Positions 2,777-52,815 of a DNA stretch of 64,000 bases are shown here, piece after piece (the stretch's first letter is position 1; each line of letters starts with the position of its first letter). The DNA comes from Cloeon dipterum (taxonomy: Eukaryota > Arthropoda > Insecta > Ephemeroptera > Baetidae). A program made the position numbers and the translations under genes. The stretch is taken from NCBI RefSeq assembly GCF_949628265.1, contig NC_088788.1, positions 25,778,335 through 25,842,334 on the forward strand, in the 5' to 3' direction. The notes beneath the pieces are model-generated. The model worked only from the letters and a program-made list of their open reading frames with translations. It did no database searches and was not told where the DNA came from.

Positions 2777-5542
2777 ATGGATTCGGACAATGAGGAAATC
2801 CCTGAGTTGGTGGAGGCGGATTTGAAGCCAGTTCCAGTCACAATTGTTACAGGGTTCCTGGGCTCAGGGAAAACGACCCTGCTAAACTACATCTTGACCG
2901 AACAGCACTCAAAGAAAATTGCCGTCATTCTTAATGAGTTTGGAGAAGGTTGATTCAATAGAAGCAAAAATAAATTCAAAATTTGATTCAAATTTGAACG
3001 CAGGGAGTGCCGTGGAGAAGAGCTTGACAGTTGGACAGGATGGAGAGCTTTTTGAAGAGTGGCTTGAACTTCGGAATGGGTGTCTGTGCTGCTCAGTCAA
3101 GTAATTTTGTTATCACTCCCGAATTGGAATTAAAAAAAAATTACAATAATCAGGGACAATGGAGTAAAGGCGATTGAAAACCTCATGCAGAAAAGAGGAA
3201 AATTCGACTACATCTTGCTAGAAACAACTGGACTTGCCGACCCTGGTATTGTTGGAAAAATACGAAAAATACAATTTGATTTGAAGGATTGATCTTGTTT
3301 TAAAATTCACAGGTCCCATAGCCTCAATATTTTGGCTTGATTCGGATTTGGGAAGCAGTGTTTTCTTAGATGGTATATTGAAATAGATTTTTATAATTTT
3401 TGTGTATTGAAATAATTTTTTCAGGGATTATTACTGTAGTGGACGCAAAATACGGATTAAAGGTAAAATATCGGGCTTTGAAATATTTTTAATTTAACAG
3501 AGTTGATTAATAACCAATATAAAATTTGGAGAAAACAACTAAATTAGTTCATACAATTTGTCTACAAATTTTTCCTGTACAGCCCATCTAGATAAAAATA
3601 CACCATTTCTAAAACGAACTGAACAAAATTATAGGATATAAAATACAAACAAGGTTTCAGCATTACAGAGAGCATATACAAAAGTTGTTGATTAATGTCA
3701 ACGGGCGGCGATGTTAGCCGCAGTTGTCATTTCGCTTACTCTTTGTCAATCGAACATGTCAAATGAATTAACCGCGCCGTGTACAAATGTTGCAGAATCG
3801 CGAAATTACGAGCGACACAGAGGCGGCGATCAATGCGGCCGAGCGGTGAGTTTTCGCATCGTTCACCACTGCATTCGAGAGAGCGGCTTGTGGTGGAAAC
3901 ACGCTCTCCATAATATGTCCCCTGCACGCCCTATTGATCCCCGTCCACTCTCGCTCTCTCTCTCTCTCTCTCTATCCTGTGCTCGCATACACACTCACAC
4001 AATGGCCCCAAGTTGTCTAAAAATATTCGTGTCTCCGCAAACAACGCAAAACAGAGACAAATAGTGTTCCCTGCACCATGCGCGCTCCTGAATACATCAG
4101 ATGCTGCAGGGGCCTCCTTCTGCGTGGGCCGCATTGCCACATCTGACAATGAGATTAATCAATGAGTATGTAGATGTGGGGTACGAGTTAAAAATTCAAT
4201 ATAATTTGCATTCCACTTGAACATTATTAATAGCATGATTATATGGAAGGGCTAAATGTATAGTTTTACCAGAAAACTAGCAGTTTTTGCCTCATCACCA
4301 CCATTATTATTTGGTACCATAATTATTAAATTAGTAATTATTTGCATCATGGGTGATTTTTCTTGATTTCGCGTCTTTTTTATCTTGATCATTTTTTTCT
4401 CTGCAAAGTAGGCAGCGTTAAAATTTCTAATTAAAAATTATTTTTTTCGGACAGGATTATATTTTCTTTATTCATGTTTCTTTGCGACAGTAACATAATT
4501 TTAAATTATCCATTTCGCTCACTGAGATCTCCAGCCCTTCATTGCAAAAATTTAGATAATTTCAAGCTAATTTTGAAAACTTAGCTCACTTTTAGAATTT
4601 AGATTCAAGGTAATTTGTAGATAAATGAATCTACTGCAGCAAACTGCGCTCTAAATAGTCTAAATATGCTGAGTCGTCAGCGAATGAGCGGTAGTAAAAA
4701 GGCGAACAAGATCGTGAGAAATTACGGGCTCTTTTTCACGATGAAGTTAATTTAACATTAAGATTATTTCAATGACTTCATGATTGTGATTTTTCGGTCC
4801 GATAAATTTAGCCCAAAAATTTTCACGCGCGTTTCTGGACTGGAGTGCCCCTCGGATCTCATCAGCAGTACAATTTCTGGAAAAAGAGCGCAAGTGTCGG
4901 GGTTTCATGAGATTCGATCTTTTAAAAGTATAATACTTTTATTTTATCCAGGACTGTTTCCTTAGCCGTAAAATCAAACCAAATAACCATGTTAAGATGA
5001 GCCTTCTGTAAAACTCTTCTAACTTGAATTGAAATCAAATAATATGTTCGGATATAGAATATTAAATATCAATTAAAAGCCGGACCTGTTTTCTAATTGA
5101 TCATAGCATTATAGCAATCAATACCAGCTTTTTTTTGTTAAATCTCTTAATTGATAGTAAAAGCGAAATATCAACAAAAATTAAAGCAGGACTTGCAACC
5201 GACACCAGCGAATGTAGCAGGCCGTACTTGAGTTGGTCTCGGGAGGAAAATTGTATATTTGTAGTCAGGGCGAAAGGCAGAAGTCGGCGGCGGCACATAT
5301 GGCTATACTCTGGCGCGCGCGTTATGCAAAACAAATAATTGGAGTTGTTGACTGTGGAAAGCATTATATTGCAAAATATACGTATAAGCGGCGCAGCAAG
5401 CGAGTGAGCGATGAATTTTATTTGGTGGTACATTCAAACAGCAACGGCAGCAGCAGCAGATCTATATTAATGTTTACTGTGTAAGCAAATAAAAGAGTGA
5501 GGCTGATTCAACAATATAAAAGGAATGTTTGCTGGAGGCTGT

Positions 5543-5592
<50 letters not shown>

Positions 5593-8500
5593 GTTGTATA
5601 TGAGAATTGCGAGTATATATGAGCCGAGAGAGAAGAGAGAATTCGCCGGAATACTCACTCATTCGCTTGGCACAGCGGCGCGCGCGGGTGAAAAGCAGTT
5701 TTGCCGTGAAAAGTATAAGGCGCGCGCTGTTTCAAGCAGCACTTGGCTGCCTTTGTGGTCGCAGTCAAGATGCAATAATCTGCTCGGCGGCACCGCCAAC
5801 CCCAATATGAGCAAAGATAGAATTGTCAGCATAATGGGGGTAAAAATAATCCGCTGCTCTTTGATTGTTGTAGCGCGACACTTTTCGCTCGCTCCCCAAA
5901 CCCTGCTCTCGCTCGCTCTTGTTCCGCGGCGGCTCTTTCCTCGCCCGCTTCCGTCGCCTGCCAGATTTTCACGCTGACGCCGCGAACGCTAAAAAACATG
6001 TTCGTTGTTGGAGAGGATTGCGCTCCAAGTGGCGGGCAATATTGTAAAATCGCGATTTTTCGAGATTGAAGCTCGATTTCAAAGGTTAAAATTTCAATCA
6101 TTTGGTTTAATAACGATATTTCAAGAGGAAAATATTATCTGAAATGACATGATTTCTTTTAAATACACTCAAAGTTAAACGTTTTATTCGACTTATCAAT
6201 TATTTTGATGTAAAATTATTTTAAAATGGAAGTAAACATATAATTAAATGGAACAAAAGAGCAAAAAAGAGAGTATTTTTGCGAGGACCAATTATGAATT
6301 GAATAATATAAAAATCTTGATAGTATGGTTAAAAATTTATTTTTTTTACCAAAAAATGAATTTAAAATCACACGCATTTTCAGTAGGAAAGGTATTCTAA
6401 CCAAGAAAGCATCACAAACCATATTTAGTTCCCTAAATGTTTTTCTTTTAATAAAAACGTAATAATTGAAATTTTGGACAGTGCGCTGATTTTTTTATAC
6501 ATTTTTGATTAATTTTGTTACAAAACCTTAGCAATTATAGGTGTAGCATTTATTATTTTAACACATTTGTTTTGTTTCAACCTCATTTCGTTCTATATAT
6601 TGCTCTTATTTGCACTTCAAAAACTCGTTCTTATAATGTGAAACTTCAAACGTTTATCATATATCTCAGTTAAAATAATTTAGTCAGCAAACCACCAATT
6701 CTTTTTGACCCGAAATAGCTTCCTGAACAGGCTCTGCTGCTAAATGAATAGCTCAAGGGTCGTCCATAGCCTTTATTGATGAAATTTGGATTTTTTGGGT
6801 TTCAGGCAGATCGCGCTGGCAGACCTACTAATTTTAAATAAAGCTGATCTTACGAATGAGGCTGAGTTGAACGGGCTAAAAGAGGCGGTCAGGTAACTAA
6901 AATTTTTGAATTAAAAAGCAAACTATATATATATGGAAATTCATAATTTCAGGCAACTAAATGGTGCAAGCGATATTGTTACTTCTCAGAGATGCAGGTA
7001 ATGGAATCCATTTAAAAATTCCTTAATTTTCATAAAAATTATCACAACCAGTGAAAAATATTTAAAATGTTCATTTTGCAGGGTTGATTTGGACAAAATC
7101 CTCGATTTGAAGGCGTACTCAGGAAACGGATTTTCAAGGTAAGAGAAAAGGGCTGCGAGAAAAATTTCTTTATGAGAAAAAAAATCGCGTTTGGAAGAGT
7201 CATCGACCTTTGCAACCAAGCCGGAATACTTTGTTTTAATTTCTGCTGGCCATTGTTGCAAAATCAAAGGGTATTCTTGAATAAGTGAGAGAAAAGGGTT
7301 TTTGATATTTGTGAGCTAGCAGTGGACACTCGAGGAACAAAAGGGCGAAAAGTGCTCACTTGGTAAAAATAGAAGGAGTCTTGCTGGAAGTTGGCCTTGC
7401 TCTTGCTTTGACACGTCCCGCTGAGCACATCAAAGGCGGACAGAAAAAAATGCACAGGAACTAAATGTATGCATGCAATCAGTCAAGTGCGGCCGTAATT
7501 ACACTCTCGGCCACTCGAGAACAACGCTCAACACTAACTTGTTTGGCTCAATACTAAAATTATACATCCTGCAAAATCGCGCGCGCGATATTGCTCTTAT
7601 GAATGAGCCTTCTGTGTAATTATGCTCGATTATTGTGTTCTCTCGCTCACTCGCTCGCTCTTTCTCTCCTTCAAAACCTCTGCTGATAACAAAGCCAACA
7701 ATTACACAATCCCCCTTCCTTGCCCGTGCTCAGCGCGATTTCACGCTGCATCGGCGAAAGCTGGCCACCGCGGGGGTTGTGATCCGCTCACGAATAATCT
7801 TCAACTGGAGTCTGCAGACTACCACCACATACAAATTTTAAAATACGCTGGGAATTCCAATTTGTAGCTGAAGAATTTTCTTTCTGGAGGTAATCAAAAT
7901 TGCTAGGCTATTTTCCAGTCTGGCTTAAAATAATTTATCTATATATTAAAATAGAATAGTGTTTATTAGACACCAATGGTGATCAACAATAAGAAATTTA
8001 CCATATTACAAACAGGATTGCGGCTTGAAATAACGTAATACTACTATTTTTACAACTATGTAAACAAATAATACATATATATCGGTACATTCTTCATCAC
8101 AAAATTGGTATGTATTTACAGTTTACAGTTTGCATAAACATCCAGATGAAACAAATTTATTGTTACGCATCAGAAAATGAGAACCATATGGAAGGAGTGT
8201 CTTGTGAAAACATACCAATCATTACCACGAGGAAGCCACCAGTTCTTATAATCATTGCTGGTGTGCTTTAAAAATTCGGATGGATATTTTGTTTTTGTAG
8301 ACCATTTTCCCAAAAATTTGTTATACAATTTTTTTATACACATTTTTATTACATTTATAAAATTATCAGTCTCCACTAATTCAAAGACCATTCATTTCAT
8401 CAGTTTATCTACGCTTAAAGCTTTTTAAAGTATATTGTCTCAGCACATTCAAGATTGTTTAAATTAATCATATTGAGGATTCAATCCAAACAGCCTCAAT

Positions 8501-11500
8501 ACCATTTGTGGCAACAGGAAAAATGGCTAAATCAAACAATCTTTTGGCTGTATCGATGGAGTTCTTTGTAAAATTTTAACCTTGCCCGCGAAAATGGATA
8601 CTTTAACTTTTTTGCCAATTATGTTTACAGAAACATAAACCCAAAGCTTTTATCTATATATTAAGATCTTAAATATTTTTCCAATGCTAATTTTACAGAT
8701 TACGTTCGTTGATGGACGATGTTTCTAAACTGGATGGCTTGTCACACATTGACTCGGTATGTTCCCCTTCAATTTCGAGTGTTTAATTTCATACCCATCT
8801 TCTCAGAGCATCAACACAGTCACTTTTGAATGGTCCACCCCGCTGAGCGAGGACGTGATCAACTTATTTGCGCAGAGGATACTGTGGGAAAACGCTCTGC
8901 ATCCAGCAGCCATCATTCGAATGAAGGTAATTTTATTTTTCATTATTTTGCCATAATTATATGCATTTTAACCTTGTTAAATTTCATACTTTAAAAAATC
9001 TTATGCGCAAAGAACTATAAAGAGCAGCAATAGTAATATTTTTACTGCACAAGAGCAATTTTTATTAAAAACTCGTATCAAAACCAAAATGCTTTGATGA
9101 TTTTTTAATAAATCGACAGCCTTTACATAAAAAGTCTATATTTTTACGCTGCTGCGACCAATTTTTCCCTGAACGTTTTTCAATGGTTGTAAAAAGGTTG
9201 TGGACTAAACTAAGCCTGTTAATGTTTTGAATTAAAAAATCTCTTCGCTATTTCTGGCAAGTCCTTAATGGGATTTGAACGGTGGTTTGTGAAGAGTTTG
9301 AACTGCCAGTTTTAGATGTGTTTAAAATTTTTTGCATGGCCTTCCTAAGGGAGACAAAATTTCCCAGCCCTCGTGTCAGTCATAAATAGCTCTAAAAGAC
9401 CGCAAAAGTGGAAAGCGTGTGCCTATCAACGTGTGCCCGCCCCCTAATTTCAATAAATAATAATAATAACCTGCACGTCGTGCCGGGCCAATATTCGCGG
9501 CGAAGAGGCAGCGGGATAAATATTTGTGAGCGCTGCAGACAAATAATTAATACAGGGCCGAGACCACCCTGCACCCTCAGATGTAATGACAAATAATTTA
9601 AAGCTAGTCGGCAGCATTTTCGCCGCAGGGGTTGCCAAGGGAGCGTCAAATATTAATTTTAAAGGGCATAGGTAACGAGGGGAAGGGGTTGGGGGCGCGC
9701 GGGCGAGAGAGCGAGGTATTTATTGCAGCAGCAGCCACCCTCATGAATTTAATAGGGGTGGCTGGCGAGCACGCCTGGCCGGCATTCAACAAGCGTATAG
9801 GGTAAATAGACAATGGCCCGGCACCAACACAATTGTGCCTAGTGTCGTGCGAGCGTGTGCCGCGAATGCTAAACAGACACTCGTCGCTCGCTCTCCATGC
9901 AATAACATTGCATTATTTCCACGCAACACCCCGGAATTTTATATTTCGGGCAGCGCCACATTTATGACGCCCAGTGTGCGCGCCGCTTTGCGCGTGAATT
10001 CCGCGCGTTCAGCTCAATCCGAGTGGAAAACGGTGCAAAGCACCCACGGACAAAACATTTGTTCTGCCAAATTTCGATTTTCGCTCGCTCGATTGTAGAA
10101 TTATTTCCCCAAAAGTATAAACAGTATTCGTTCTAATTTCGTTTTTACATAATTAAAAAATTTCTATTCAATTTGAAGTGAAGTATTGATTAATTTTTAA
10201 ATAGTTTTAAATTTGAATGAACAACATGCAATTTTGTAATAACAACACACTCTTTGAACAAAATAATTTTTCTCTTCATTATACCTCAAATTTAGCTTTA
10301 AAATATAGTTTTATTTTAGTTGGTTTAAATTAATAAAAATGGGTTTAAAATTTCCATTTTAAGTGATTTCAGATCGGACTATTTTTTAAGTAATGTGATT
10401 GATATAACCACATCTAATTTTTTAGCCTCGCTGTCAATTAACCAGAAACCTAACGATTTTCCAATTTTTTGTAGTCATTGGAAATAACAATTCACCGAGA
10501 TAACTAATGCAAATTTGTACGTTAAAACGCGAGGTATAGATACTTGATTCATTAAAATTCTTTATTTAGAAGCAACATTTTTTGCGTTCCTGCTGCGGCA
10601 TAACAGAGTCGACCGTTGGTTACGCTCCAGGTATAAAATATTTTCAGAAAAAATCGCCGTTCCTTAGGTAAATGTATCGTTACTGATCCATCGTGTGTTA
10701 AGTCAAAAGATAGCTCAAGCGAGTCAAGTTACGCGTAGCTCATCTTCTTGGTAAAGGCTTTGAAACCAGCTTTGCCGGACTGGTTATCAAGCGAACTGGT
10801 CGTGGCAGTAATCTCAACTTTAATTAAACATTACTTGAGCTATGAAATGCTCTATGTTCCCGACAATATTAATGGGGACTGACGGAGATTTCAAGCTCAT
10901 TCTGACAAATGCTACCAGTTTATATGTTAAGCCTGAGCGTGAGTGCCTGATTAATAGAGCGCTTATTTTTCCGGTGATATTTATACAATTTATGTTTCAA
11001 TTTTAGTTAAATAGTCAGCCGCCAGCCGCTGTGACTTTGGCAACGCTGCGCCAGTCACGGCAGCCGCCGGCCAAAAAATAAATCGAAAAAAAGCTAAAAA
11101 CATCGGTGTCCTGCCCTTCAAGCCAATATCCACCTTCCAAATTTCCTTTTAAAATTTTGTTAACCGCCGCCGGGCTAAAATTCGGCTTAAGCTGTTGAGC
11201 CAGCCACCACCTCAAAATTGCGCGGCTGAGAGACCCCTAATTTACCGTCCCTGAGGGTTTGAGCTTTACATAAAAAAATTAACCCCCATAGGAAGCACTT
11301 CGCTTCAAAGTTTGTGAGCTTTTTCAAAGGCGAGCACAGTCCGACTTTATTTCATTTAACAAAAATTTCCACTTCTTAAAAGCATTAATTCACCTATGGC
11401 TACGGGTAATAATAGATTTCGACAAGAGGAATATAAATCAGCCATATTTTAGAGTAAATTGGTAAAATGTGACATTAAATGCAATGACAATTGGCCGCCG

Positions 11501-14229
11501 AAACTTGATACCCTGCGATGAGAATTGCATAAAAGGTATCAACATTGAAAGTACTTTTTTCGACTTTCCTAACGCACTGAACGGTGTTATTATTCTGAAA
11601 AAAAAAATCAAACAGTAGCTTAATGAAAATTCATCAACAATGCAAAAATTAATTGTTACCTTAGAGCCCTTAGAGAAATATTTTTTATTACACAAAATAT
11701 CCTGCTAAGATGACAAAGGTTAAGTACCATTTCTACCTTAGTTCCTTTTAGTGACTGTGATTTTGAAAATTAATCAAATTTTAATAATTATAATCGGTTT
11801 AAAGTTGTTACTGGAAAACCAGCAAATTTGGAGTGTGAGAAATTGCCAAGTTCGGGTGGCTGTTGTTAGGCAGCAGAAAGTAATAAAACGCTCTCGACGC
11901 CAGCTCCTCCGGGAGTTTCGTTTCACCGCACTTTTGATGGTGTGAGAAAAGGCTGGATGCGGATGCATACGTAATTGTTGATTGAATCATCAAGTGGCGC
12001 GACAAAGCGAGAGAGCGAGCGAGCTAGCATGCATTTGTTTAGCGTGTGTGCGACTAAGTTGTAATGAAAAACGAGCTTGTTTGGCTGGTGTGTCAACATA
12101 ATAGCAAAATCGGGCGCGGCGAGCATTTATTATTTGGCCCGTGAGTGTCCACACGCCTCGAGTGTCGCTACAAATGCCTTTGATCCCTTTGTTGGCGGCA
12201 ACTTTAATGAGAATCGGATGTGTTGCATGCGAGGACGAGTCACGCGGAAAATTAATGAAGTGCTCCTCTCTCCCCCGCGCGCTGCATCCCCCGGCGGTGG
12301 CTCCTGCACTCGGCACACGCGGACAGGGTGTCGCAACAATAATATCCTATTTTTATTGAATATCTTTAGCAAATGTTATAAAGAATTTTTCTGCCACGCT
12401 GCGCGGCCGCTATTTGCAATATTGAAAAGCGATATCGCATGCAGCCCCCGAGTCCATTCACCCGGCGCTAACGCACTAACAACCGGCACCGGCGCCAATA
12501 TAAATGTATTCAAACGCGGCGCGAGAACGGCCGCCCACCCACCAACCCGCCTCTCCTTTTCTTTTCATCCGACGCGGACCAAGAATGCTACAAAGAAAAT
12601 GTTGTCGTTTGTTTCAAAGACCGTAGCCAAAGACGCGCTCCGCCTGTGCTGAATTTATATTATGTTTTGAGTAATCATTTGCCTGCTTTAGGGACTAATA
12701 AAAGCAAAGGAAAACGGCGGCGGCGACGACGACGGTGGTGCTGCTTTTTTCATGCTGCAAGGCGTCTACGAGATGTACGACCTGCAGCCGGTGCCCGGCC
12801 AGTTCCTCGACGACGCCGACGCAGCCGCTGCCTGCCGCTTCATCATCATCGGTGAGTCTCGGAAAATGCTTTCCTCCTTTTCTCTCTCAAGCTATATTAA
12901 AATCGGAGTTTTTTTGTAAAAAATTAGGAAGTGAATTCGAGGTCTCTGATTCTTCCTTTACAAACCCTTTTATTATGACAGTTGTTTAAAATTATCGCAA
13001 AAACATTCAAAGTTGACTTAATTGGTTGAAAAACTGGCTAGTCGCATAGATGGTTAAATATCTCAGTCCTTATCATACGTTCTCCTATTGGTCGCAACGT
13101 TTAAAAAGGATTTTTAAAAATATTTTCATTTTCATTAATTCATATAATTTTTTCAGTTTAATTGTTTCTGTTACTATAGTCTATTCAACAATTTAATACT
13201 CAATCATGACACATTATTAGTAGTGGTTAAATGTTATGAAAATCACGAAGAACTGATATTCAAGACTTTTTTCCTCAAAGCGAACAAACATCATCTTTAA
13301 TTGCTCTACTATAGTTTCCGAATTTCAATCTTCATAAAGGGCCTCGCTAGGATTGTAAATCAAGGCATAAAAATCTGCAAAATTAATCAAGTTTTTCTTT
13401 TATTTTCTTATTTGTTTTTTTCAAAAAAAAAAAAAAAAAAAAAGAACGCAGCCATTACTAATTATTTGACAAAAAAATACTTTTCTTGACAAGAATGGGG
13501 ATAATATTGGAGAAGCAGCCCAAGGAATGTTCAGTTGTTGAAATTTAATCAGGGCAATTTTTTTCCTTGTCCTTTATTTTCCTACGAGTTTCGGCTTACC
13601 CTTTTAGTGATATTTCATGTTGTGTTAAAATGGTGCAAATCAGCAAGATTGTAAGTAGTCATTCTTGTCAATAATTGAAGGTAACAAATGCTTGACTTTC
13701 TTTCACTTCCACAAGAAAAAGGAACATTCTGAGAAGTTCCCTTCATTTTTTCTGCAAATTCCAAAGCCTTTATTTATAGAAAAATCTCCCCTTTGAATCA
13801 ATCCCTTCTTTAAAGATAAGGCGAATGATTTGAATGAATGATTCGAATGATTGAAAACCGGATATATTTGTAAAATTGTTCTTATAGCTAATTTCTTTGT
13901 ACTGTTGAATTTAAGTTAGAATCCCTATATTGCATGGTAATATTACTATTTATATTATGTTTAGGAAAACAGGAAATTACTGAAAATTTAGTTTCAAAAT
14001 TTTAAGCCATTCTATGTGTGTGTTTGAAGGAAGTGTTTCAATTTTAATTCTTCCAGCCTTCAATGTTCCAACTTTTAGTGTAATTTGCAGAAAAATCGAT
14101 CTAATTTTAAATTGCAACGATCAAACCGTCTTCTATACATTTACATTTTCAGGTCGCGGAGTGAAAAAGGATGAGGCAATGGACTTGCTGCGAATATGCG
14201 TGTCTGACTCAAGTTCTTCCGCTAGATAA
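2777..14229 (+). CDS. ZNG1: Zinc-regulated GTPase metalloprotein activator (ZNG1/CBWD, COG0523 family)
   Basis: Predicted 370-residue cytosolic G3E GTPase; the vertebrate relative hands zinc to methionine aminopeptidase 1. Thirteen exons: 2777-2948, 3004-3100, 3154-3245, 3313-3372, 3425-3462, 3796-3845, 6806-6892, 6953-6997, 7082-7138, 8699-8756, 8807-8926, 12692-12851, 14153-14229. All phases join and the sum is 1113 nt. Visible motifs: Walker [10 protein letters not shown] (residues 26-34), metal-binding CLCC (84-87), ETTGLADP (113-120), guanine-specificity NKAD (181-184), then a CobW C-terminal domain with GVYEMYDL. The sixth exon (50 bp) is poorly conserved but fits phase exactly and ends INAAER before QIALAD. 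The N-terminal METAP1-docking motif of vertebrates appears only as IPELVEA. A Gly/Asp-rich insert (GGGDDDGG) interrupts the C-terminal domain. Two introns exceed 3 kb and carry GC-rich islands. Length is close to the human protein. Confidence 0.95.
3954..3973. repeat. (TC)n microsatellite
   Basis: A short run of about ten TC units in ZNG1 intron 6, inside a GC-rich block. It could bind a GAGA-type factor but is otherwise a simple repeat. Confidence 0.85.
5544..5590. repeat. (CT)n microsatellite
   Basis: An uninterrupted run of about 23 CT units in ZNG1 intron 6. It gives rise to long serine/leucine or arginine/glutamate open frames on either strand that are not genes. As a GA-repeat it is also a potential GAGA-factor platform next to a GC-rich block. 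Confidence 0.95.
13423..13443 (+). repeat. Poly(A) run in ZNG1 last intron
   Basis: Twenty-one consecutive A residues between a T-rich stretch and AT-rich intron. No retroposed body is recognisable upstream, so it is listed only as a homopolymer. Confidence 0.8.
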
Positions 14230-14241
14230 TTTGGAAATTTA

Positions 14242-14247
14242 AATAAA
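14242..14247 (+). terminator. ZNG1 poly(A) signal
   Basis: AATAAA lies 12 nt after the ZNG1 stop codon, giving a very short 3' UTR. Confidence 0.75.
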
Positions 14248-14249
14248 AC

Positions 14250-17200
14250 TCCCTTGGTGAAACTAACAGCGACTAGTTTAATTCCACGAGACAATTATAG
14301 CGGTGGTCAATCGATGCGACGGCATGCGAAATCGGAAATCTGGCGCGGGGCGAAGCTTTCTCGCACACACCGCATCAGCCAAAACGGAGTGCTCTGCTGG
14401 CTTTCATTCAATATTCATGCGCCGGAAAACATTTCAAAGCACTCAAAAGTTGGAAGTAAATACGCATGTAACGTGCAGATGTAACAAATACCACACCCGC
14501 GACAAAGGTTCGCACACATGCATTTGCAGGTGCATTATTTCACATTAGGCGTCGCTCGCTCGCTCTCGCTCACATCAGCCGCGCGTCGGAATGGAGCGCG
14601 GGAGAGGGAGGCAGGGAGGAGCCGCTCGCTTTTCTCTCGTTCCCCGCACACTCACTCACTCTCTCACTCGCCATTTTCTCTGCGTTAGCATATACATATT
14701 GATTCAGCAGCGGCGACGGCGGAGGCGGCGGAGTCAATCTGTTCTGCCGGCAAATCAACCACGCCACTTTATTGTATACAGGCACAATTTTCTGCGCTGC
14801 AAATCTCCGCTTGACTTTTCTTTCGAAAAGAGATTTATTTGGCGGCGCTATGCGCTCATCCAATCTGGCCTGTCTGTCTATCTTCCGCCTCGGGAATGAG
14901 GCGCGCACCTTCTTTCCCCGGCGTTGTGTGTGTGCAAAGTGGATTTTGCTCAAGATGACTTGAGCCAGCAGGGCATTTACTCAGCTTGAAACATCAAGAA
15001 ATGCTTGCTCGCTCGCTCACGGCTCGCAACTTTTCCTCGCTTCGTAGACCCTTTGTAGAAAATGAGTTTCCAACAATGGGTAATGGAGTTTTCTGAAGCT
15101 CGCCGAGTTGAAAGCGCAGAAACTTGGATAACAAGTATGCGATTGGAATTGAGTTTGGTTCAAAAATTGGTCCGGAAGTTGAAACGCGATTCAGTGCATC
15201 AGCCACGACTACAATATTTAAGTATTTTAAACGACACTCTTCTCTGAAAATGATGTATTGAAATTTTAATGATATTTATAAAAATAACCATCACGAAAAA
15301 TCTTCCACTTGTTCAATTTATATTTAAAACAAAATAGTGATTTAATAATAAGTGAGGCGCTTTTATTTCTGACTGAAGTAAAAATTGGATTTGTGTGTTC
15401 ATTTGAGGAATTCTATCAGTTCAGTAAATATCTAGCAGGCAACCTGCTGAAATATGCCCATTGAAACGAAAACCTTTTTTACAAGAATCACTCTGGGAAG
15501 CATCTTTTGTCCACGTTATCATAATTAATTTATTCATTTCTATATTAAAAGCGCCTTTTCCCAAGTAACTTTTGCAATGAAGTACATATTTGAGTGTTGC
15601 AAAAATTGATGCAAAAATCAGAAGTTTACTGGGAAAATGCGCTGCCACAACTAAATGCCAAAATTAAAAAAAAATGGTGTAAATAATTGAAAAGAAAATA
15701 TATGCAAGAAAAGCATGAACCAAACTAGCAACTGATAGATTTTAGATTCAAAATTTAATGCTATTGCTGATCAGCAGGGTAGCTTTACTCCATACATCCC
15801 CACGCATTCAAAAGAGACTAAATATTTTAAAACGTCATATACATACTTTTTGGTAATTCTTAAGACTTTTCTTCCACATGACATAAATTTCAAAAACAAT
15901 AATTGCTCATTTTTAACTTTGTCGCTGAAATCAAAACTCAACTTAATCCGTAAGACTGGATTTTAAAACGTTTCTCTAGAAAATTTTAAAATCTGCGCAT
16001 ATTATGGATATTTTATGATTTGAAATATTGTTGAAATTTCTTGCTAAAAATTATTAAAAATGCAAAGTATCGTGAATGAAAATGATTTTCTGATTTTTTT
16101 ACAACTTCCCTCAACAACTTGAGATTTGAGATGCTCTTTAATGTAGAATAATTGGTGAAATGTTAAAAGCAAAAGGCCAAGATAGCACTAAGTAAAGTAA
16201 AACTTTTTGTCTAACCTTTAGCCAAATAAATTAGTTTGAAGGTGGCATTGTTTAATGTCAACTCAATTTTCTTGTAAGTTTAACTAGATTTAAAATTTCA
16301 ATAAAAACGTGGTTATCACGGATTTACGTTACCCTCCAAGTTGCGCTGTATCATAGCTAAATATTCTTTGTGTTGACCATAATGACAATATTTTGCAACT
16401 TCACCGAAACGGCTAGACAACCATTTTATTCGGCGATTGGTCCTACTGTGATATTATTATATATTTTGCTTAGAGGCCATTTGGACAAATTCAAACTTAA
16501 AATATTTTCCTGCGTTAGAAGGTGTTAAATTTCGATTTAAAAAAGGTTTTACTGTATAGAGAGCAATATAATTAAACTAAGTGCATAATTAAACCGAAGA
16601 TTTCATTAGAGAAATGAAACAAAATTGTCCCTGAGACTGAAATATTTTTTAACAAAATTTTACTTAAAGAGCAAGCAGAGAAAATTAAAATAACTGTCAC
16701 CTACTCATTATTTTCTCTTGTTCTGTGGTTTAATACAAGTTAATTCATTATCTTAAGAAAATCAAACTTCAAACTGAAAGAATCTGATATGCAGAGCTCC
16801 TGCGCAGCAATTGATGAAATTTGGAGAGAGAAAATAAATAATTGCAATGGAATCAATGCCAGCCGGTAAGAGGTTGTATTTTTATGTATTTTCGCAAGCA
16901 AAACTGCTTGTCCGCACTTGGAGGGCTTAGCAAATCCACTTGCTCCGCAGCGGGTGCACAAGCGGATCGGCGACGGCAGCAGCCACAATCACGCCCAATT
17001 AAGCCGGCAATCGCTGCTCAAACGCAAATTTCACGCCAGATTAGCCGCGCGAGCCTGCTGAGCAATTACGGCGGGAAACTTCATTGTTTTTTACGCGGCG
17101 GTGGCAGCGACGACGGAGGCAAGAATCAAGCGAGGCGAGCCGGTTCGTGGGGGAGCGGCGGCCGATCTGGCCAGATTGAGTCATGACTCAGCTAGGGGTC

Positions 17201-20200
17201 CGTGTGTGGCCTGAGAGCGAGCGAGGCGGCCGATCTAACCACCTGCCACCGAATTCTCGCAGCTTCCGTCCCTAACGAGTAAAATCAATACGCGCGCACT
17301 TGCGACCGCTCTTCCTTTTCCGAGTTTTTTTCCTTCCGCCGGCCCCCGACAGCTCTATTATTAGTTTAGCACACGATAGAGCAGAAGAGAAAGAAGTAGT
17401 AGGAGACATGAGTGCGCTCGATGAGACAGCGCCTGCAGGAATCGCCGTTATGCAATCCGCGCGCCACTCGTGTTGCCCCGCGTGCCTACCTCGCTCGCCG
17501 AGAGCCACTCTTTCATGTTGTCCCGACTTCATTGAATTAGCGTCCAATTTCAACCACTTACCAACACTAATTGGTTATGCGGCAGATTTTAAACTGAGCT
17601 CTTGAGGGGGAGGCATGTGTGCGCGGCTGCTGCTCTTGAGAGTTTTCGCATTAATAGATATAAATATGCGCATCATCTTATCTCCCTGAATATTTCGAGA
17701 ATTTCCTGCTCTCAAAATTTACAAAGATAATTTGTGGCGTTGTTGTCTGATATAAGCAGGTAAATGGTATATACTATATAATAGGGCTCAATACGGCGTG
17801 AGATAACATTTTTTTGTCAATCGTTTTTGCAGCATTACTAGTGTCTACAGCCCATTTCTTCCCTGCGTGATGTTGTGATAGGTCGTTAATTAAAGACGTT
17901 ATTATTTTATTTCAAACTTTGTATTTGTATGACTTGTTGGAAAACAAATGAAAATTAAATTGAAAAAGGGGTTTTTACTCAGAGATTTTTTTTAATTTTA
18001 TTGATATAGTGTTTATATATCTCCAAATTAATTTAAATTTGAGGATACTTGAATGCGATTAGTTCCGGATTTTAACCAGGGTGGTTTAATCTAGGGAATT
18101 TTAGCCTGGGTGAAATGACCGTATTGGTTGTTATATAAAAAATCTTAAAAATACTAAAAATTCACTAGTCAATTTGGGCGAAGTTGAAATTGAAACTAAA
18201 AGCAGCAGTATAGTGAAGAAATCCCCTGAATACTCCAACTCTTAACGGAGAATAGAACAAAAAACAAACAATATTCTTGTCTATGGAGCAAGATTCCATA
18301 AAATATTAGGAAATCTGGATATTATAAAAATATATATATTTTTGATTTCATCATTAAATTTGTAAAAATCAGAATGTTCCCATAACTTTTCAATTTGCAT
18401 AGCAAATATACATACTCATAGTTCTATTTTAGAAGCATCTATAAATTATGGCTGTGGTGTAATTTAAGGGTTTGGTGAATAGCCAATCATTTTTACCAAA
18501 ATAATTGGTCAAAACTATTTTTAAAAAGACTGGCTTCTTTAAAGCACTCATCAAATCTAACGATTAATAGATGTCTGGAAATTTTATTGATTATGCCTTT
18601 GGAATGATTAACAGCTTGAACAAAATGACAGCTATTTAAGATAATACATAAATATTTAGATGGATTTTGACCCTACAACAACGAAAACAGCGCTTTTAGA
18701 TCAATACTTTTAAATTCGTCCCCAAGGATATTCTTTTGTTCGTTGTGTCAACGGATTATTTTTGGTTTGATCATTAATGTTATGCACAGACTTTTTAGTG
18801 CATATACATCAGTTTTTCTTTATACAAATATGTATTGATTCGGGTCTCTCTATATTTATCAATTTTTTTGCAGAGTCTGCAGGTGAGAAAAAAATAAGCG
18901 AACTGTTCCGCATCTAACACGTGCTACAAATGAAAAATATCCATCTAACAGATGCAACAGCAACAAATAATGAACATCAAATGATTTTAGTAGTGATGGA
19001 AAATTGCACACACACGAGATGAATCCCCGGCCCGGCAGATCGCGGTCGGAACAAAGAGAGACAAAAGGCAGCTGACAAATCTGGAGGCGTGTGATTTACG
19101 GCGTGCGATATTGCAGGCACGAAATGAGCAGCATATTGGCCGCGGCGACCGCGCGCATAATTCGCCGCCTAAATCGTTTTGCGGGCGTCAAGCACTAATG
19201 GTGTTGACACTGCTTGCTAAAAGGGGAGATCGCGAGAGCAAATAAGAGGATTGTGCTGCAGCCTGCACAATTCAACGCCGAGTCGATGAATATACTCACT
19301 TGGCGCTCGCACAATGCGACAGCGGGGGCAGTGATAAACGGCCGGAAATGATTTTCACAAACTCTCTAATTCAATGCATTATATATTTCACGAATTGTTG
19401 GTAAAATAAAAACTATTTAACTAGCGTCGAAAATTAAAACAAATAAAATCACTCACAATCAGCTAAGAAAATACTAAGAATCAGCATTTTAAAGAAAATC
19501 TGAAATCATCAGTTTTTCCAAAATGACATTTACATAGCTCTCACATGTACTAGCAGTTTGTTTTGAAAATCCATTCATTTTTCAACCCCGTAGTTAAAAT
19601 TAAAAATCTCCTACGCAAACCTAGCAAATTAGTGTCTCGAGGATTTGCAAATTTGGTCCTACAAGCTATTTCACTAGATGGAAAACTTTTGACCCGGTCT
19701 TTATCACAGAGAGGTGATTTTTTGTCCTGAAAGGGCTCTTTTTCACATCCCTGCTTGTGCGACAAATAGAGGCAGGCGGAGAGTGTTGCTTAAAGCGGAA
19801 CAATACAAAAACCGCCCTCTTCGGTCCGCCTTTTGTGATTCAAATGCACTGCTGGGAACAATCGCCGGCCGCCCGCGCGCTCACTCGCGTCCGCCCTAAT
19901 CGCCTTTTCTTATTTGTTTGCCGACTCAGACATGATTAAGAAATACCTAACCGTTTTACTTGTCGCCAAGATTAATGACGGGACAACGAGTCAGGCGTCT
20001 GCCGCCACGCGTGCACGAGCTAGGGCAGATGGCCCGTGCGGATGCGGCCAATAGGTTTCGTTTGCACTGCAAGAATGCCAATTTATTCATGATCACGGGT
20101 GGGCGCGAGCGCGGGGGTGTCTTTTTGACTGCAGTGTGCGCGTGTTAATTAAAAGGCCCCGCTGCCGACTGCATTTTTCCCGCTTAAAGGGAGAGAGTGA

Positions 20201-20205
20201 GGCCA
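14250..20205. promoter_or_regulatory. ZNG1-FoxD spacer with GC-rich islands
   Basis: No exon was found in this six-kilobase spacer. GC-rich, CpG-bearing blocks at about 14280-14960, 16840-17640 and 19010-20200 alternate with AT-rich sequence (15250-16800 and 17700-18990). The blocks contain CT/GA tracts and short CGCTCG-type repeats but no recognisable protein. Their resemblance to the blocks in the ZNG1 introns and downstream of FoxD suggests a shared regulatory landscape for FoxD. This is inference from composition alone. Confidence 0.4.
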
Positions 20206-20210
20206 GAGGT

Positions 20211-20377
20211 TATAAAATATTCATCAACGCATCCGATTACAGCGATAATCCTCGGCTCTCGCGTTGAGCACGGTTTATTAGTTTGGATCAAGTGTCTGAT
20301 ATACATACGACGAGAGTCGATCAATTGAAATCAAAAGGCGTTTTTTGGAGGTCCACGAGAGAGCAAATCAAGCAGTA
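20211..20377 (+). promoter_or_regulatory. Candidate FoxD promoter and non-coding first exon
   Basis: A TATA box (TATAAAA at 20211-20217) is followed about 165 nt later by a consensus donor (GTAAGT from 20378). A pyrimidine-rich acceptor (ggttttgcag) occurs at about 22001, upstream of the FoxD ATG. Together these would make a non-coding exon of roughly 135 nt spliced to the FoxD coding exon across a 1.6-kb intron. Only the three signals are seen; the linkage is inferred. Confidence 0.4.
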
Positions 20378-22000
20378 GTAAGTTAAAAGTTTATAACAAT
20401 TAATATCTAAAATCAAAATTGATTTAGTCGAGCAGAAAGTTATCACTTATTTACATCTCAATACCAGAATATAACATAAATAATCATACAAAAGTTGTTC
20501 GTAAACCATACTTATTTCAAGCTCTTTTAAATTACATCTTTATATGCCCATAGTGTAAGATGTATTAATAAGTTTCTCACATAAACGGTCGTATATTAAT
20601 TAAACAAAAAGATAAAAACATACATTATATTTTAATGCGGAATCTGAATATTGTATTACAGAGATGAATAATTGAAACTCTGTTTGAGGAAAATTTTTCA
20701 TTCGGATCGGTTTTCACTGATACTGAAAAACGTTTGGTGCCTCAATACTCAAAATTTGTTATAGTATAACACTTCTTTGATTAAAAAATTGACTTTGTGA
20801 AAAGCTTAATATTTTCTATTCGCAGCAGCAAAATGAGTCTCGATTAAAATTATAAAGAGGTGGGATGTGTAAAAAATTAAAATTATAATGATGAAAATTA
20901 TATCAATCTCTTCACAACATAAGAACATTTTTTACTCTTAAAAAATAATTTGAAAATGAGTTATAAAAGAATCGAATTAAATTTTGAGAGAATATCTGGA
21001 ATTTAATCCCGAAATTCCTGTTCCGTCAAAATTAAAAATATTTTTAGCGATCACCGCGTATGCACTTAGAGGAACATTAAGTATTTAGCATTATAACATT
21101 GTTTTTTTAGTATAAAATTACTGCCTTTTCCATGCAATGAAGCCACGTATACGTTTTTGACAAGAAGCGCTTTTTAAATGTTTGTTGATTCCTGATTTAT
21201 GAAATATTTCACCCATTATCATAAATCAATCTCATATCTAACAAAAATCTATGTTTTAAATAAAGCGTCAGGTGATTTCTCATGGTGTTGGAGGATGATC
21301 TTGAAAATAAAGTTTGCGTCAAAGAAATAAGCGATAAAACTTATAAGAAATCTCTTAGTTCGGTAAATAGCAGAATTTAAGCATCATTGAAGTACATCAT
21401 GTGTTGGTTCAAAATTCATAAGTTTTGAGATATTTGACGCCGATCAGCACATATTTGCTTGGGAAGGGAACAACTGGAAGCGGACTGGCGCAGTTTACAC
21501 GCACACAGGGAGAGAGAACGAGACACATATTAATACTTTCGAGTGCGAGATGAGAACAACAGCGCAGCTCACAATAAAACAGAGTAAACACGATATAACA
21601 GCGCGCGCTGCTGAGCGAACTATACATCGCTTTATACACAGTATATAGATGTGTGCACGCGCGTGTACATATACACATAAAAAGCTTGGCTTATCATGTG
21701 CGAATGCGGGGCCTCTCTCTCTCTCGCTCTTTCACCATGGCTGAGAGTGCTATAGTGTGCGTGTGTCGAAACAGCGCGGTAAAGAACACACACACCCCTA
21801 CTCATTTTTTGCATCAACCCCATAACATTATCTATAAGCGGCGGCGGCGGCAGTGGCGGCGGCGGCGGCACGATAACCACGCCCACTGCAATGTAAACTC
21901 TCCCTTTTACATTAAGTAACACGCAGGGGTGGAGCTTCGGAGAACCACCCTATGTGAATGCGATTTAACCCAGAAAGTTTGCGTTTCGTGCGGTTTTGCA
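20378..22000. other. Spacer or 5' intron upstream of FoxD
   Basis: From 20378 to about 21410 the sequence is AT-rich with no feature I can name. From about 21420 to 22000 it becomes GC-rich, with a short CT run near 21712-21730 and GCGGCG repeats near 21838-21868, similar to the other islands. No exon was identified. Confidence 0.5.
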
Positions 22001-22207
22001 GGGGGTAGCCGAGTCGTTAGCCAATGAAAAGGCCCGTTGTCAAAATCACAGGCGCGCAGAATGTAGTGTGTTTGTCGAGGCTGCAGCCCCGTGTGTCGGG
22101 GTGTCTCGCTCGCCCGGCCAGCCTGCCAGCCAGCCAGTCCGTACACACGCACATACAAATAGAGACAACACGTTTTAACAGCGCGGCGCGTCAACACCAC
22201 TTGCCCA

Positions 22208-25200
22208 ATGGCTGACCTCGCGTGGCACCAGCAGCACCTTGCCGGCGCCGCGTACCCCGCCGCCGAGCCGGCGCCGCTCGACCTGCGGGGCCCGCCGGCC
22301 CCGCAGCCCTTCCGCAGGCACCAGCACGAGTCGTCCGACTCAGAGTCCGAGGACATCAACGTCGACTCGGACGACGACGTGACCGTGGCCTCGCGCCACC
22401 ACTCGTTCAGCGCGGCCGCCGTCGCCGCTGCCGGCGCCTCGGACGTCGCCGCCGCCGCCAAGGAGCAGCAGCTGGCCGCCAAGGGCACCAAGGCCGACGA
22501 CGCGGCCAAGGGGGCGACTAACGTCAAGCCACCCTACTCGTACATCGCGCTCATCACCATGGGCATCCTGCAGAGCCCGCACAAGAGACTCACCCTAAGC
22601 GGCATCTGCGAGTTCATCATGTCCAGGTTGGTGCTATGACCACACAAGAAAATGCCATAATTTCAACACCCCTTATATAGAGATACAATCTGTTCCAACT
22701 GTTATTCTAAGAAAAAAACTAAAATTGAAGCTTATATTCCAAATTTATTCATTTGCTCGGGAATTTACGGAATAACGCCTGAACCGATAAAGAATGATGT
22801 TAAAACAAGTAGAGGAAAATTTAGGAATTTAATAATTAAATTTTCAAATACTGATTGTACAAGCGAATGAAAACTTCAATTTTAATTTAATTGAATTGGC
22901 CAACATCTCGCTAACACTCTATACCCAGGAGGGCAGAGCCGAAATGGGCCTGGTCAAAAGGGGAATTAAGCTGCACTAGAAACACGCACTCATATACGCC
23001 TTACACTTGGAAGGAAACTGTGCCGCCGAACAGTCTTTCAATGCGGGTGGTGTAGCATTCCAAAAATTATTTCATTGATCACAAAAATTTGACGAATAAC
23101 GTCAGAAGCTCGCATTGTTAAGGCACTCTCAGGAGTGTCAAAGCAATGAGAGGTATTTGAGCAGTTCGGAGATCTAATACTGGCTACCCAATGTCAGAAA
23201 TGGCAAAAAGTGGTTAGTTTAGTGACTCGAAATGCTCAAATTGCTCAAGGGGCTGGGAGGCGCACCGGCGCCGACTCGCTACTTGCTGGTTTGCACCTTT
23301 CCAGCATGCGTGATTTGGCTTCACGGCACGAATGTCTAGCGTTTCAATGCAGTCCTCGGTGCGAAGGCAAGTGGCCCTTCAGTGGGCTGGGTCCCTGTGC
23401 GGCCTGGTGCGCTTATGTTATCCGTTCGCGGTGTTATTGGGACCCGGGTTTCAGCATTCGTGCTAGTGCAGTGCGCGCCCTTCCCAGTCCGAGAGGACAG
23501 GGATAAAAAGAGCAAAAAAGAAGATAAACTGTTTTGAAATTTCCCTTCAAGTCTACTTATACACGAAGTTTTGAAAAATATCATTCAACCCTCTCCGTGA
23601 AATGGCAAAATTAAATTGTAACTGCTCTTTCACTGTGTGGTTGAAAATCCTTTGAATTATATTATAGAATTCGGTTAAATTCCCAAGGAATTTGGATCAA
23701 GATCCACATTTTTGTTCAGGATCCGTGTTGTCTATAGTTTAATAATATATGATTTCCCCACAAAATACATCTTCACGTATATTTGTATGAAAAGTAAAGT
23801 TTCGCATATCATTCATTTACCCCCCCCCCCCCCCCCCTATACAAGCTGCAGATGAGTATTAAGCGTTGGAAATTGATGCACCTTCAGGATACATGCTTTC
23901 GGTGTACATGTCTGCACGTGAAGTCTATCGTATGAGGGTTTAATCCCCAAAACAGCCCATCCTATAATTGGGTTGCTGGCAAAATTAATAATGCCTAATA
24001 AATATTTTTACTTCATTTCCGCCCTAGCTATAATCTTGAAAAATTTGTATTTTTTTTATGTTCCTTGTTATTCCTCAAAATGGTTTGTATACGTTCCTTG
24101 AGCTTCTTCCGATATTAAATTTTTATTTATTTTAAGATTAATTATGCTAAATCATTTTCGCAGCTTGAGAAAGTAATATATTTTTATTTTTAACATTTAT
24201 CTTTTATCGCAACTGTAGAAAATTTCGAGAATTTGCAAAATTAGATACTATACTCATTTGATTCCTGCGTGTATGTTTGATTTAAAAAATCTTATGTTTT
24301 GCAAAGTTGTAGCCAGCGCAAAAAATTAGCAGAAATAATTCAAAAATAAAGAAATCAAATTGAGTAGAAAATAGAAGATCAAAATATTTACTAGTGGGGG
24401 AGGAATCCACATATTTCTGCAGTTTCAAGAAACTGATTTTTCGAATTTGTACATTTTATGTAGAAAACTATGGAGTTATTACTTGATAGGAGACTAGAAA
24501 ATAAACCCCTGCAAATATCAAAAAAATTTAGTGTGTCGTTAAAATTTTCATCTAAAGCTACACATGTATTTTATAGAAATCTAACATCCATGGTGTCTGC
24601 TAATTTTATATTAATTGTGTAGTCTTTACTAAAAAAAATCATTCATTTCTATTTTATAATATTTTTGTGAGATTTTTTGTCAAATAATTTTTAAATACCA
24701 TTACCTTTTTTTATCAAATGTACTCCTTCCATTTATTTCTACAAAAAGGGATTAATAAAAATTAGCGCAAAATAACAAATCCCATTACAGGAAACAATAC
24801 ACTGTGTGGGAAAGGGGTTGGAATCTTATAGTGAGCTTAATTCACGCACTTTTCGTGTCCGACAGGTTTCCCTACTACCGGGACAAGTTTCCCGCGTGGC
24901 AGAACTCGATTAGGCACAACCTGTCGCTGAACGACTGCTTCATCAAGATTCCGAGAGAACCGGGCAACCCGGGCAAGGGTAACTACTGGACCCTGGACCC
25001 GATGGCCGAGGACATGTTCGACAACGGAAGTTTCCTGCGGCGCCGTAAGCGTTATAAACGACAGCAGCCACCGGCCTTCCTGCAGAACCATGCTGCCATG
25101 GCGGCTGCCGCGGCCGCCTTCCTGGGTGGAGGCGCGGGGGCCGGCGGGGGCGACCCATACCTGTCACATGGTCTGCCCCCGCACCACCTGCCGCCCCCGT

Positions 25201-25736
25201 ACGCATACCTGCAGCCGCCGTCGGTGCCACTGCTGCCACGCCTCTCGCTGGCGCCGCTCGGCCTCAGTCTGCACGCCGCCGCCGCCCCCGGCGCTGGCAG
25301 CCTCCACAAGCCCGTGCCCACCCTGTACCAGTGCAAGACAGCGGCCACCCTCAAGTCAGGATTCACCATTGACTCGTTAATAGGCAAGGTATGATTAAAT
25401 AAATTTCGGAGTTTTTCTTTCTATAAGGAAGCCTTCTTGCAATCAATCAAATGAAAAGAAAAATAATTGCTTTTAGTTTAGGTTTAAATATTTTCGTGAA
25501 ATTCTGTCCTAAGTTGAATTCACAAAAAAGCAGTATATTGTCACTTTAATTAGCCATAAGTACTATACCAATCCGGGCCTTGTGTTTGTTTTCAGGTGTT
25601 GAGAGGATCGTCGCATGTCGGGGCTGGGGGCCGGCAGTCTCCGCCCGCAGTCACCCGTAGTACCGACTCGGCCTTCACACCTCTCGGTGGAGAGCGTGCG
25701 TCGCCCCTGCCGGAACACGCGAACACCACCTTGTGA
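22208..25736 (+). CDS. FoxD: Forkhead transcription factor, FoxD subfamily
   Basis: Nuclear sequence-specific DNA-binding protein of 360 predicted residues; FoxD factors pattern neural and mesodermal tissue. Exons: 22208-22626, 24866-25388, 25596-25736 (1083 nt, phases agree). The N-terminus has an acidic Ser/Asp/Glu segment ([15 protein letters not shown], about residues 43-58), then Ala-rich sequence. The forkhead domain spans about 105-205, from [13 protein letters not shown] through helix 3 ([13 protein letters not shown]) to [12 protein letters not shown], a typical FoxD ending. The rest is Ala/Gly/Pro/His-rich and ends exon 2 with FTIDSLIG, matching the FoxD eh1-like Groucho-binding motif. 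The first intron (2.2 kb) splits the forkhead domain after FIMSR and contains a SINE-like repeat. The start is the first ATG in frame and lies in a GC-rich block. Drosophila fd59A is the likely relative. Very long non-coding flanks fit a developmentally regulated gene. Confidence 0.95.
23365..23520 (+). repeat. SINE-like dispersed repeat, copy 1
   Basis: About 155 bp in FoxD intron 1 that matches 51940-52094 nearly base for base in the same orientation. It begins aggcaagtggcc, contains gtgttattgggacccgggtt, and ends gggataaaaagagc followed by an A-rich tail. A GTTCG core in the middle weakly resembles a pol III box B, so a tRNA-derived SINE is possible but unproven. No coding function is claimed, although both copies happen to be open in one frame. 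Confidence 0.75.
23820..23837 (+). repeat. Poly(C) run in FoxD intron 1
   Basis: Eighteen consecutive C residues. Such runs are prone to length error; no other structure is associated with it. Confidence 0.85.
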
Positions 25737-51679: not shown

Positions 51680-52815
51680 AAGCAATATTTTGATATGATT
51701 TTATTTGTGGCCTTAGTTTTCAATTTATTTTTAAAAATTTATGAAACTTTGTACAAATTTTCAAGCAATGTTATTGAGACTATCTAATTTGTTTGATAAC
51801 TTACCGTCAATTAAAACAACATCATTTTGGTTGTGGTACTCTAGTTCTGCTTCAATAATTAGATGCTATGCATTTATATTTTACCTAGCAATTTTTTGTT
51901 TAAAAAAATACCACGCAAGTTTAACAAATCCGATTACGGAGGCAAGTGGCCCTTGAGTGGGCTGGGTCCCTGTGCGGCCTGGTGCGCCCATGTTATCCGT
52001 TCGTGGTGTTATTGGGACCCGGGTTTCAGCATTTCAGCAGTGCAGTGTGCGCCCTTCCCGGTCCTCGGACAGGGATAAAAAGAGCAAAAAAAAATTATTG
52101 AAGAAATTTCTGAATCTAAAATAAATCTTTAAATATTAAATTTTTATTGATTTCATAATATATTATTTTAAATAATAACATCTGTTGTGGGATATGGATT
52201 TTGTTGTAAATAAAATATAAAATGCCAGCAAAGTTTTTTATTGCATTTTAAATGTGCATAACAATAAGTAAATTTGCTACATTATATATATATTGTAAAT
52301 GATCAACTTTCGCATAATCAGTTGCTTTTTGAAATGATGGGAATGAAAGAGTTGTTAAAATGTGCAGCATGCAATTCTTGCATCTTTGTAAATGTAGGCA
52401 GGCATTCGTTGGGGCTCAACAACTAACGACAGAAATTTAACCGAGAGAGCTCACACAGAAGGGGTTTGGTCAACGAGCGGCCTCGGCCGTTGTGTCAAAT
52501 TTGTCTTAGTACTCAAAATTAGCTCTTGGATACGGCCGAAGACCCCTCGAGATGGTTGGCTAAACACCACACCGAGTTAACGTTATTTGTACAACACATT
52601 AATTTAATGCACAAGAGCCGTTTTCTTAAGAAAGAATTTATCGCTTCAAGTACGAAAATACAACAAGAACAGCAACAAGCATACTTTTCCTTTCATTAAT
52701 TTTCCCATCAAATCTCAACATTTTATCTGCTACAGCCGGTCCATTTGTACAATATGAGACAACCAAATTAGACTCTCAGCGTAGCCGCTTACCTGATGTC
52801 AGTGTTTAAAAATTA
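51680..52815. other. Spacer between convergent ADAT1 and Patsas-like genes
   Basis: Holds the second SINE-like copy at 51940-52094 and otherwise AT-rich sequence. No AATAAA stands near the ADAT1 stop; the first candidate is at about 52120, so the repeat may be part of the ADAT1 3' UTR. A GC-richer patch at 52430-52560 has no recognisable content. Confidence 0.5.
51940..52094 (+). repeat. SINE-like dispersed repeat, copy 2
   Basis: Matches 23365-23520 over its whole length in the same orientation, with scattered substitutions and a small deletion around cagcatttcagcag. The right end (gggataaaaagagc plus A-run) is shared. Divergence is low to moderate, so the family is probably not ancient. 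Confidence 0.75.

Follow-up and report, generated by a model that had tools for sequence, protein, structure and literature searches.

In the human genome, the genes listed for a 9p deletion are WASH1, FAM138C, FOXD4, CBWD1, C9orf66, DOCK8, and KANK1 (PMC4306731). On one side of Dmrt1 in Xenopus tropicalis lie Kank1, Dock8, Cbwd3, a Cyp2j6-like gene, and FoxD5a, the last of which the same source names once FoxD5a and once dopamine-receptor-like (PMC12467463). In the caecilian Rhinatrema, Kank1, Dock8, and Cbwd3 are kept and are followed by Pgm5 and Tmem252 (PMC12467463). Together, the human and X. tropicalis data indicate that the neighborhood is at least as old as the mammal-frog ancestor.

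CBWD proteins, also known as ZNG1, are zinc-transfer GTPases of the COG0523 family with a Walker A motif, a GCxCC motif, and a CobW C-terminal domain, and their N-terminal extension binds METAP1 (PMC10642216). For some Fox genes, microsynteny has been reported to persist across metazoans (Irimia 2012, cited in PMC7859237), and in planarians microsynteny of Fox genes was not found in an incomplete assembly (PMC7859237). Among the papers surveyed, none mentioned CBWD together with microsynteny, or CBWD1 and FOXD4 together with synteny. The term "cobw" beside FoxD in two arthropod Fox papers proved to be "cobweb spider" and not CobW.

A first-pass annotation of a Cloeon dipterum locus noted a ZNG1 gene followed by a FoxD gene, in the order and orientation of human CBWD1-FOXD4, and read this as an unusually old linkage that points to a regulatory constraint. 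Here, we compare this locus with the vertebrate neighborhoods.

A ZNG1 gene lies upstream of a FoxD gene

The window is the whole stretch of 64,000 nt that was analyzed (C3:25778335-25842334); coordinates are given within it unless a contig is named. The assembly comprises 190 Mb in 10 contigs, five of which are 33 to 43 Mb long, and contig C3 makes up 19.5% of it. No telomere-type tandem repeat was detected at 10 contig ends (5 of the 10 contigs, 2 kb each), and a TTAGG run of 30 bases had no match in the genome in a search that ignores simple repeats. The two genes and the DNA between them are as follows.

2777-14229, + strand: ZNG1 (CBWD), 13 coding exons, 370 aa (exon model, Pfam, YjiA match)
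2777-2948, 3004-3100, 3154-3245, 3313-3372, 3425-3462, + strand: ZNG1 exons 1 to 5 (exon model)
3796-3845, + strand: ZNG1 exon 6, the least certain (phase and GT-AG fit, weak similarity)
6806-6892, 6953-6997, 7082-7138, + strand: ZNG1 exons 7 to 9 (exon model)
8699-8756, 8807-8926, 12692-12851, 14153-14229, + strand: ZNG1 exons 10 to 13 (exon model)
14230-22207, no strand: ZNG1-FoxD intergenic spacer, 7978 bp, without a convincing coding exon
22208-22626, 24866-25388, 25596-25736, + strand: FoxD, 3 exons, 360 aa
23108-23502: dispersed repeat of approximately 395 bp inside FoxD intron 1

The ZNG1 model runs from an ATG at 2777 to a stop codon at 14229, with GT-AG borders at all introns and consistent phases; its two largest introns measure 2960 and 3765 bp. 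Pfam analysis, with a query that carried 11 extraneous residues ahead of the true N terminus, revealed a cobW domain (E value, 1.7e-52; profile positions 1 to 179 of 180) and a CobW_C domain (E value, 5.7e-6). The top relative of solved structure was Escherichia coli YjiA (E value, 2.5e-34). Furthermore, the model contains GFLGSGKTT (Walker A) and GCLCC (the GCxCC metal motif). With its CobW GTPase domain, these motifs, and the CobW C-terminal domain, the product is a member of the ZNG1/CBWD family. In vertebrate ZNG1, the METAP1-binding motif is CPELVPI-like and includes a cysteine. An N-terminal extension is also present in the C. dipterum product (2777-2860; 10 protein letters not shown), but, in contrast to vertebrate ZNG1, it lacks this cysteine.

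Exon 6 requires a separate comment. The initial pattern search gave no candidate for it, and the segment at 3796-3845 ranked 15th among the best 15 scored (18 versus a top score of 23). It was selected on the fit of its two phases, its splice sites, and its last residue, R. Its residues fall within the YjiA alignment; we regard the assignment as doubtful.

The cobW family search of the genome gave four matches, of which three were ZNG1 exons (two above the cutoff) and one was a weak match on contig C2 below the cutoff. All seven matches obtained with the second half of the ZNG1 protein lay within the same gene. Since both searches point only to the gene in the window, apart from the weak C2 match, no second ZNG1 copy was found in the genome. 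In the viral contigs, relatives of neither ZNG1 nor FoxD were found.

The forkhead domain of the downstream gene scored 216 bits against Genesis/FOXD3 (2hfh) versus 161 bits against the next class, FOXC2. The first-pass annotation had suggested a FoxD tree, and we built one of 24 rows, comprising 11 reference sequences and 13 domains from the C. dipterum genome; L018 was excluded for its short length, and no further domains of the forkhead census were included. The five FoxD rows grouped together with a support of 100/98. Judged by its sequence, the gene at 22208-25736 is a member of the FoxD class. Thus, the identities of both genes were borne out, and so was their arrangement, with ZNG1 and then FoxD on the + strand about 8 kb apart. 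The exon model also ends at 25736, as had been annotated. On the human side of the comparison, the adjacency of CBWD1 and FOXD4 agrees with the 9p gene list cited above. We take human FOXD4 to lie downstream of CBWD1 in the same orientation.

Intron 1 of the linked FoxD gene (22627-24865) interrupts the forkhead domain, and the second intron lies near the C terminus. Clade I Fox genes mostly have no forkhead-domain introns, with exceptions (PMC9539403). The linked gene departs from this usual structure, a common trait that does not decide the class. Copies of the repeat at 23108-23502 occur in L063 and L021 (95 to 96% identical) and, in part, at 51937-52064.

In the spacer, the top open reading frame reached a codon-usage score of 14.3, versus at least 120 for the complete FoxD frames on contig C1 described below. 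This test is weak, because the background was drawn partly from the spacer itself and short exons would escape detection.

The genome contains at least two further FoxD genes

The forkhead census of the genome gave 40 matches, 38 of them above the cutoff. In the correct orientation, 30 forkhead loci, including overlaps, were compared with FoxD as well as other classes. Among these 30 loci, only the window gene and two genes on contig C1 matched FoxD at 90% or more. The genome therefore has at least three FoxD genes, a lower bound because seven weak forkhead matches stood outside this comparison. The C1 genes are as follows.

C1:13115819-13116073, + strand: FoxD copy (L010), intronless
C1:13146157-13146411, - strand: FoxD copy (L011), intronless

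The two C1 copies, separated by 30 kb (13.116 and 13.146 Mb), form an inverted pair. Over roughly 950 bp their DNA is approximately 90% identical, and no inverted match within the 69 kb examined is longer. Both frames stay open, with no intron, across the forkhead domain and the C-terminal motif (FTIDSLL or FTIESLL). They conform to the clade I norm of a forkhead domain without an intron, whereas the ZNG1-linked copy does not. Their forkhead domains do not differ from one another and share 94% identity with that of the C3 copy; the identity of the C3 and C1 copies to rat FOXD3 is lower (89 and 91%). In the tree, the C3 and C1 copies clustered with a modest support of 88/81.

Three histories fit these data alike: the C3 gene is old and gained introns; the pair on C1 is the old form; or an intronless copy of the C3 gene gave rise to the C1 pair. 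The presence of at least three FoxD genes and the forkhead intron in the linked copy weaken a simple reading of the ZNG1-FoxD pair.

Other Fox genes were also found near each other. A second inverted pair, FoxB-like, is located on contig C5 (C5:5681103, + strand, and C5:5772608, - strand; 91 kb apart) and resembles the C1 FoxD pair in layout. A FoxF-like gene (C1:19760599) and a FoxC-like gene (C1:19813889) lie 53 kb apart and may be left over from the old FoxC-F-L1-Q1 cluster.

Six 9p24 families have no match on contig C3

Upstream of ZNG1, we identified genes for GDC-P, MFS_1_like, VMA21, and an RRM protein. An exon of the glycine decarboxylase gene (GDC-P) is located at L061:1274-1561 (C3, approximately 25.7396 Mb), about 41 kb upstream of ZNG1. 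Human GLDC is located at 9p24.1, near CBWD1 and FOXD4, which we count in favor of an old linkage; the other neighbors identified are not known to have human counterparts at 9p24. Downstream, the window between 34756 and 63632 contains an RRM gene, a kinase-like gene (below the Pfam cutoff), and an OSTM1-like gene (OSTMP1, - strand), followed by aldo-keto reductase-like, adenosine deaminase (A_deamin), ankyrin-DHHC (- strand), and receptor-kinase-like (- strand) genes; the reductase, DHHC, and receptor-kinase names were assigned by eye.

Six families of the human 9p24 neighborhood were searched for in the genome. RFX3 and RCL1 we assume to be located at human 9p24; DMRT, DOCK8, KANK1, and SMARCA2 (QLQ) were taken as 9p24 neighbors from published work. 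The numbers of matches were 10 for DM, 5 for DHR-2, 1 for KN, 2 for QLQ, 4 for RFX, and 3 for RTC_insert, and none of these 25 matches, weak ones included, was on C3. We conclude that, with respect to these six families, the ZNG1-FoxD pair stands alone. A larger inherited block of the 9p24 type was set aside on the same count. The sources for the published neighbors are PMC12467463 and PMC4306731.

Common descent is favored over coincidence

The ZNG1-FoxD neighborhood was seen directly in C. dipterum and, for human and frog, in published papers. The first-pass annotation had also drawn a parallel to CBWD2/FOXD4L1 on human 2q. This copy belongs to a segmental duplication that arose recently in hominids and is homologous to 9p24.3; the authors of that work place its source at a locus with synteny to 9q21.11 (PMC10496407). 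The parallel is therefore not independent evidence and adds no age.

The match could be a coincidence, the two genes having met independently in both lineages and the match having been noticed since many pairs were inspected. The pair was indeed chosen after the fact, the several FoxD copies of this genome raise the odds of a chance match, and the six tested 9p24 families are all on other chromosomes. To these points we opposed a random-order simulation (20 runs; 7000 common families and 15000 and 20000 genes assumed). Immediate same-strand adjacencies common by chance had a mean of 0.05 with one-to-one families and of 0.2 with paralogues. When one intervening gene was permitted, the corresponding means were 0.15 and 1.25, and the highest count in any of the 20 runs was 5. 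These estimates are low and optimistic, because real gene orders have common linkage groups and the gene numbers were assumed. Still, well under one immediate adjacency per genome pair is expected by chance, which favors inheritance, and we consider coincidence unlikely. Less likely again is a lineage-specific duplication of FoxD that placed one copy downstream of ZNG1, with the intronless C1 pair representing the ancestral FoxD. The clade-typical structure of the C1 copies is consistent with this scenario, and so are the higher identity of the C3 and C1 domains to each other than to rat FOXD3 and their grouping in the tree. However, an origin of the C1 copies from the C3 gene, by retrocopying or duplication, would fit the same data equally, and the landing beside ZNG1 would remain a coincidence.

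Microsynteny of great age is well documented. Across 49 animal genomes, 256 blocks were new in the bilaterian ancestor, versus 45 to 56 in shuffled genomes; the loss of bilaterian blocks amounted to 84% in vertebrates and 50% in ecdysozoans, and the vertebrate ancestor inherited 70 old blocks, fewer than the 110 to 124 in shuffled genomes (PMC8851819). Given these losses, such gene order does not as a rule survive in both lineages; the blocks contain at least three genes and are therefore no direct measure for pairs. Ancient microsyntenic pairs are reportedly known in the hundreds from the 2012 study of Irimia. Weighing these data, we think it probable, with moderate confidence, that the ZNG1-FoxD adjacency was inherited from the common ancestor with vertebrates. 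Slightly more probable is inheritance in the broad sense, which includes a variant without a regulatory cause. In that variant, taken by itself, the ancestral adjacency was kept by chance or by locally low recombination. Small pairs can survive by luck; however, the pair does not appear unusually tight, considering the spacer of about 8 kb and the moved neighbors, and we regard retention of this kind as very improbable.

Accordingly, the interpretation that came with the first-pass annotation is partly supported. Its first half, an old linkage, is plausible and probably right. The whole is less clean than proposed, because FoxD is multicopy in C. dipterum and there are vertebrates without strict adjacency of the two genes.

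A proposed regulatory model for the pair

For an inherited pair, a regulatory cause would be the most likely reason for its retention, as is usual where a housekeeping gene stays beside a developmental transcription factor gene. ZNG1 and FoxD would have been neighbors in the common ancestor, and the pair would have been kept while the surrounding genes were reshuffled. According to this model, FoxD enhancers, which are purely proposed, would sit in the long ZNG1 introns and in the 8-kb spacer. Breakage between the two genes would then cost FoxD expression, as in the genomic-regulatory-block (bystander) model. In its full form, the model describes a block of bilaterian age, in which embedded FoxD enhancers kept order and strand since before the protostome-deuterostome split and outlasted both the copying of FoxD to another chromosome and the scattering of the neighborhood. 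We put this forward tentatively, at somewhat less than an even chance.

A comparison of the surroundings of the C3 and C1 FoxD genes revealed only matches in coding DNA, the dispersed repeat, and a few short ones of 37 to 113 bp. This comparison says little about enhancers, which turn over and which need not be the same in paralogues that are regulated differently.

An ancestral pair would make the interior of ZNG1 the place to look for deeply conserved FoxD enhancers, and the arrangement would then be relevant to copy-number changes at human 9p24 that affect CBWD1 and FOXD4 jointly. Furthermore, the multicopy FoxD set provides a natural test of which copy retains the old regulation.

Comparison with known systems

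The closest counterpart is human CBWD1 (ZNG1A)-FOXD4 at 9p24.3, where the same two families are listed as adjacent (PMC4306731). There, CBWD1 is followed by C9orf66, DOCK8, and KANK1, whereas in C. dipterum no match to the DOCK, KANK, or DMRT family lies on C3. X. tropicalis shows the same neighborhood, but the Cyp2j6-like gene intervenes between Cbwd3 and FoxD5a, and in Rhinatrema FoxD is absent from the five genes named on that side (PMC12467463).

In a wider context, described Fox microsyntenic pairs and genomic regulatory blocks likewise place a general metabolic gene beside a developmental transcription factor gene, the two having stayed together for long periods (PMC7859237, PMC2745767, PMC8851819). 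The published FOXD3 block is from vertebrates and involves a different FoxD gene, and the blocks of PMC8851819 have at least three genes. In summary, we regard ZNG1-FoxD as a candidate further case of known ancient microsynteny and not as a new phenomenon.
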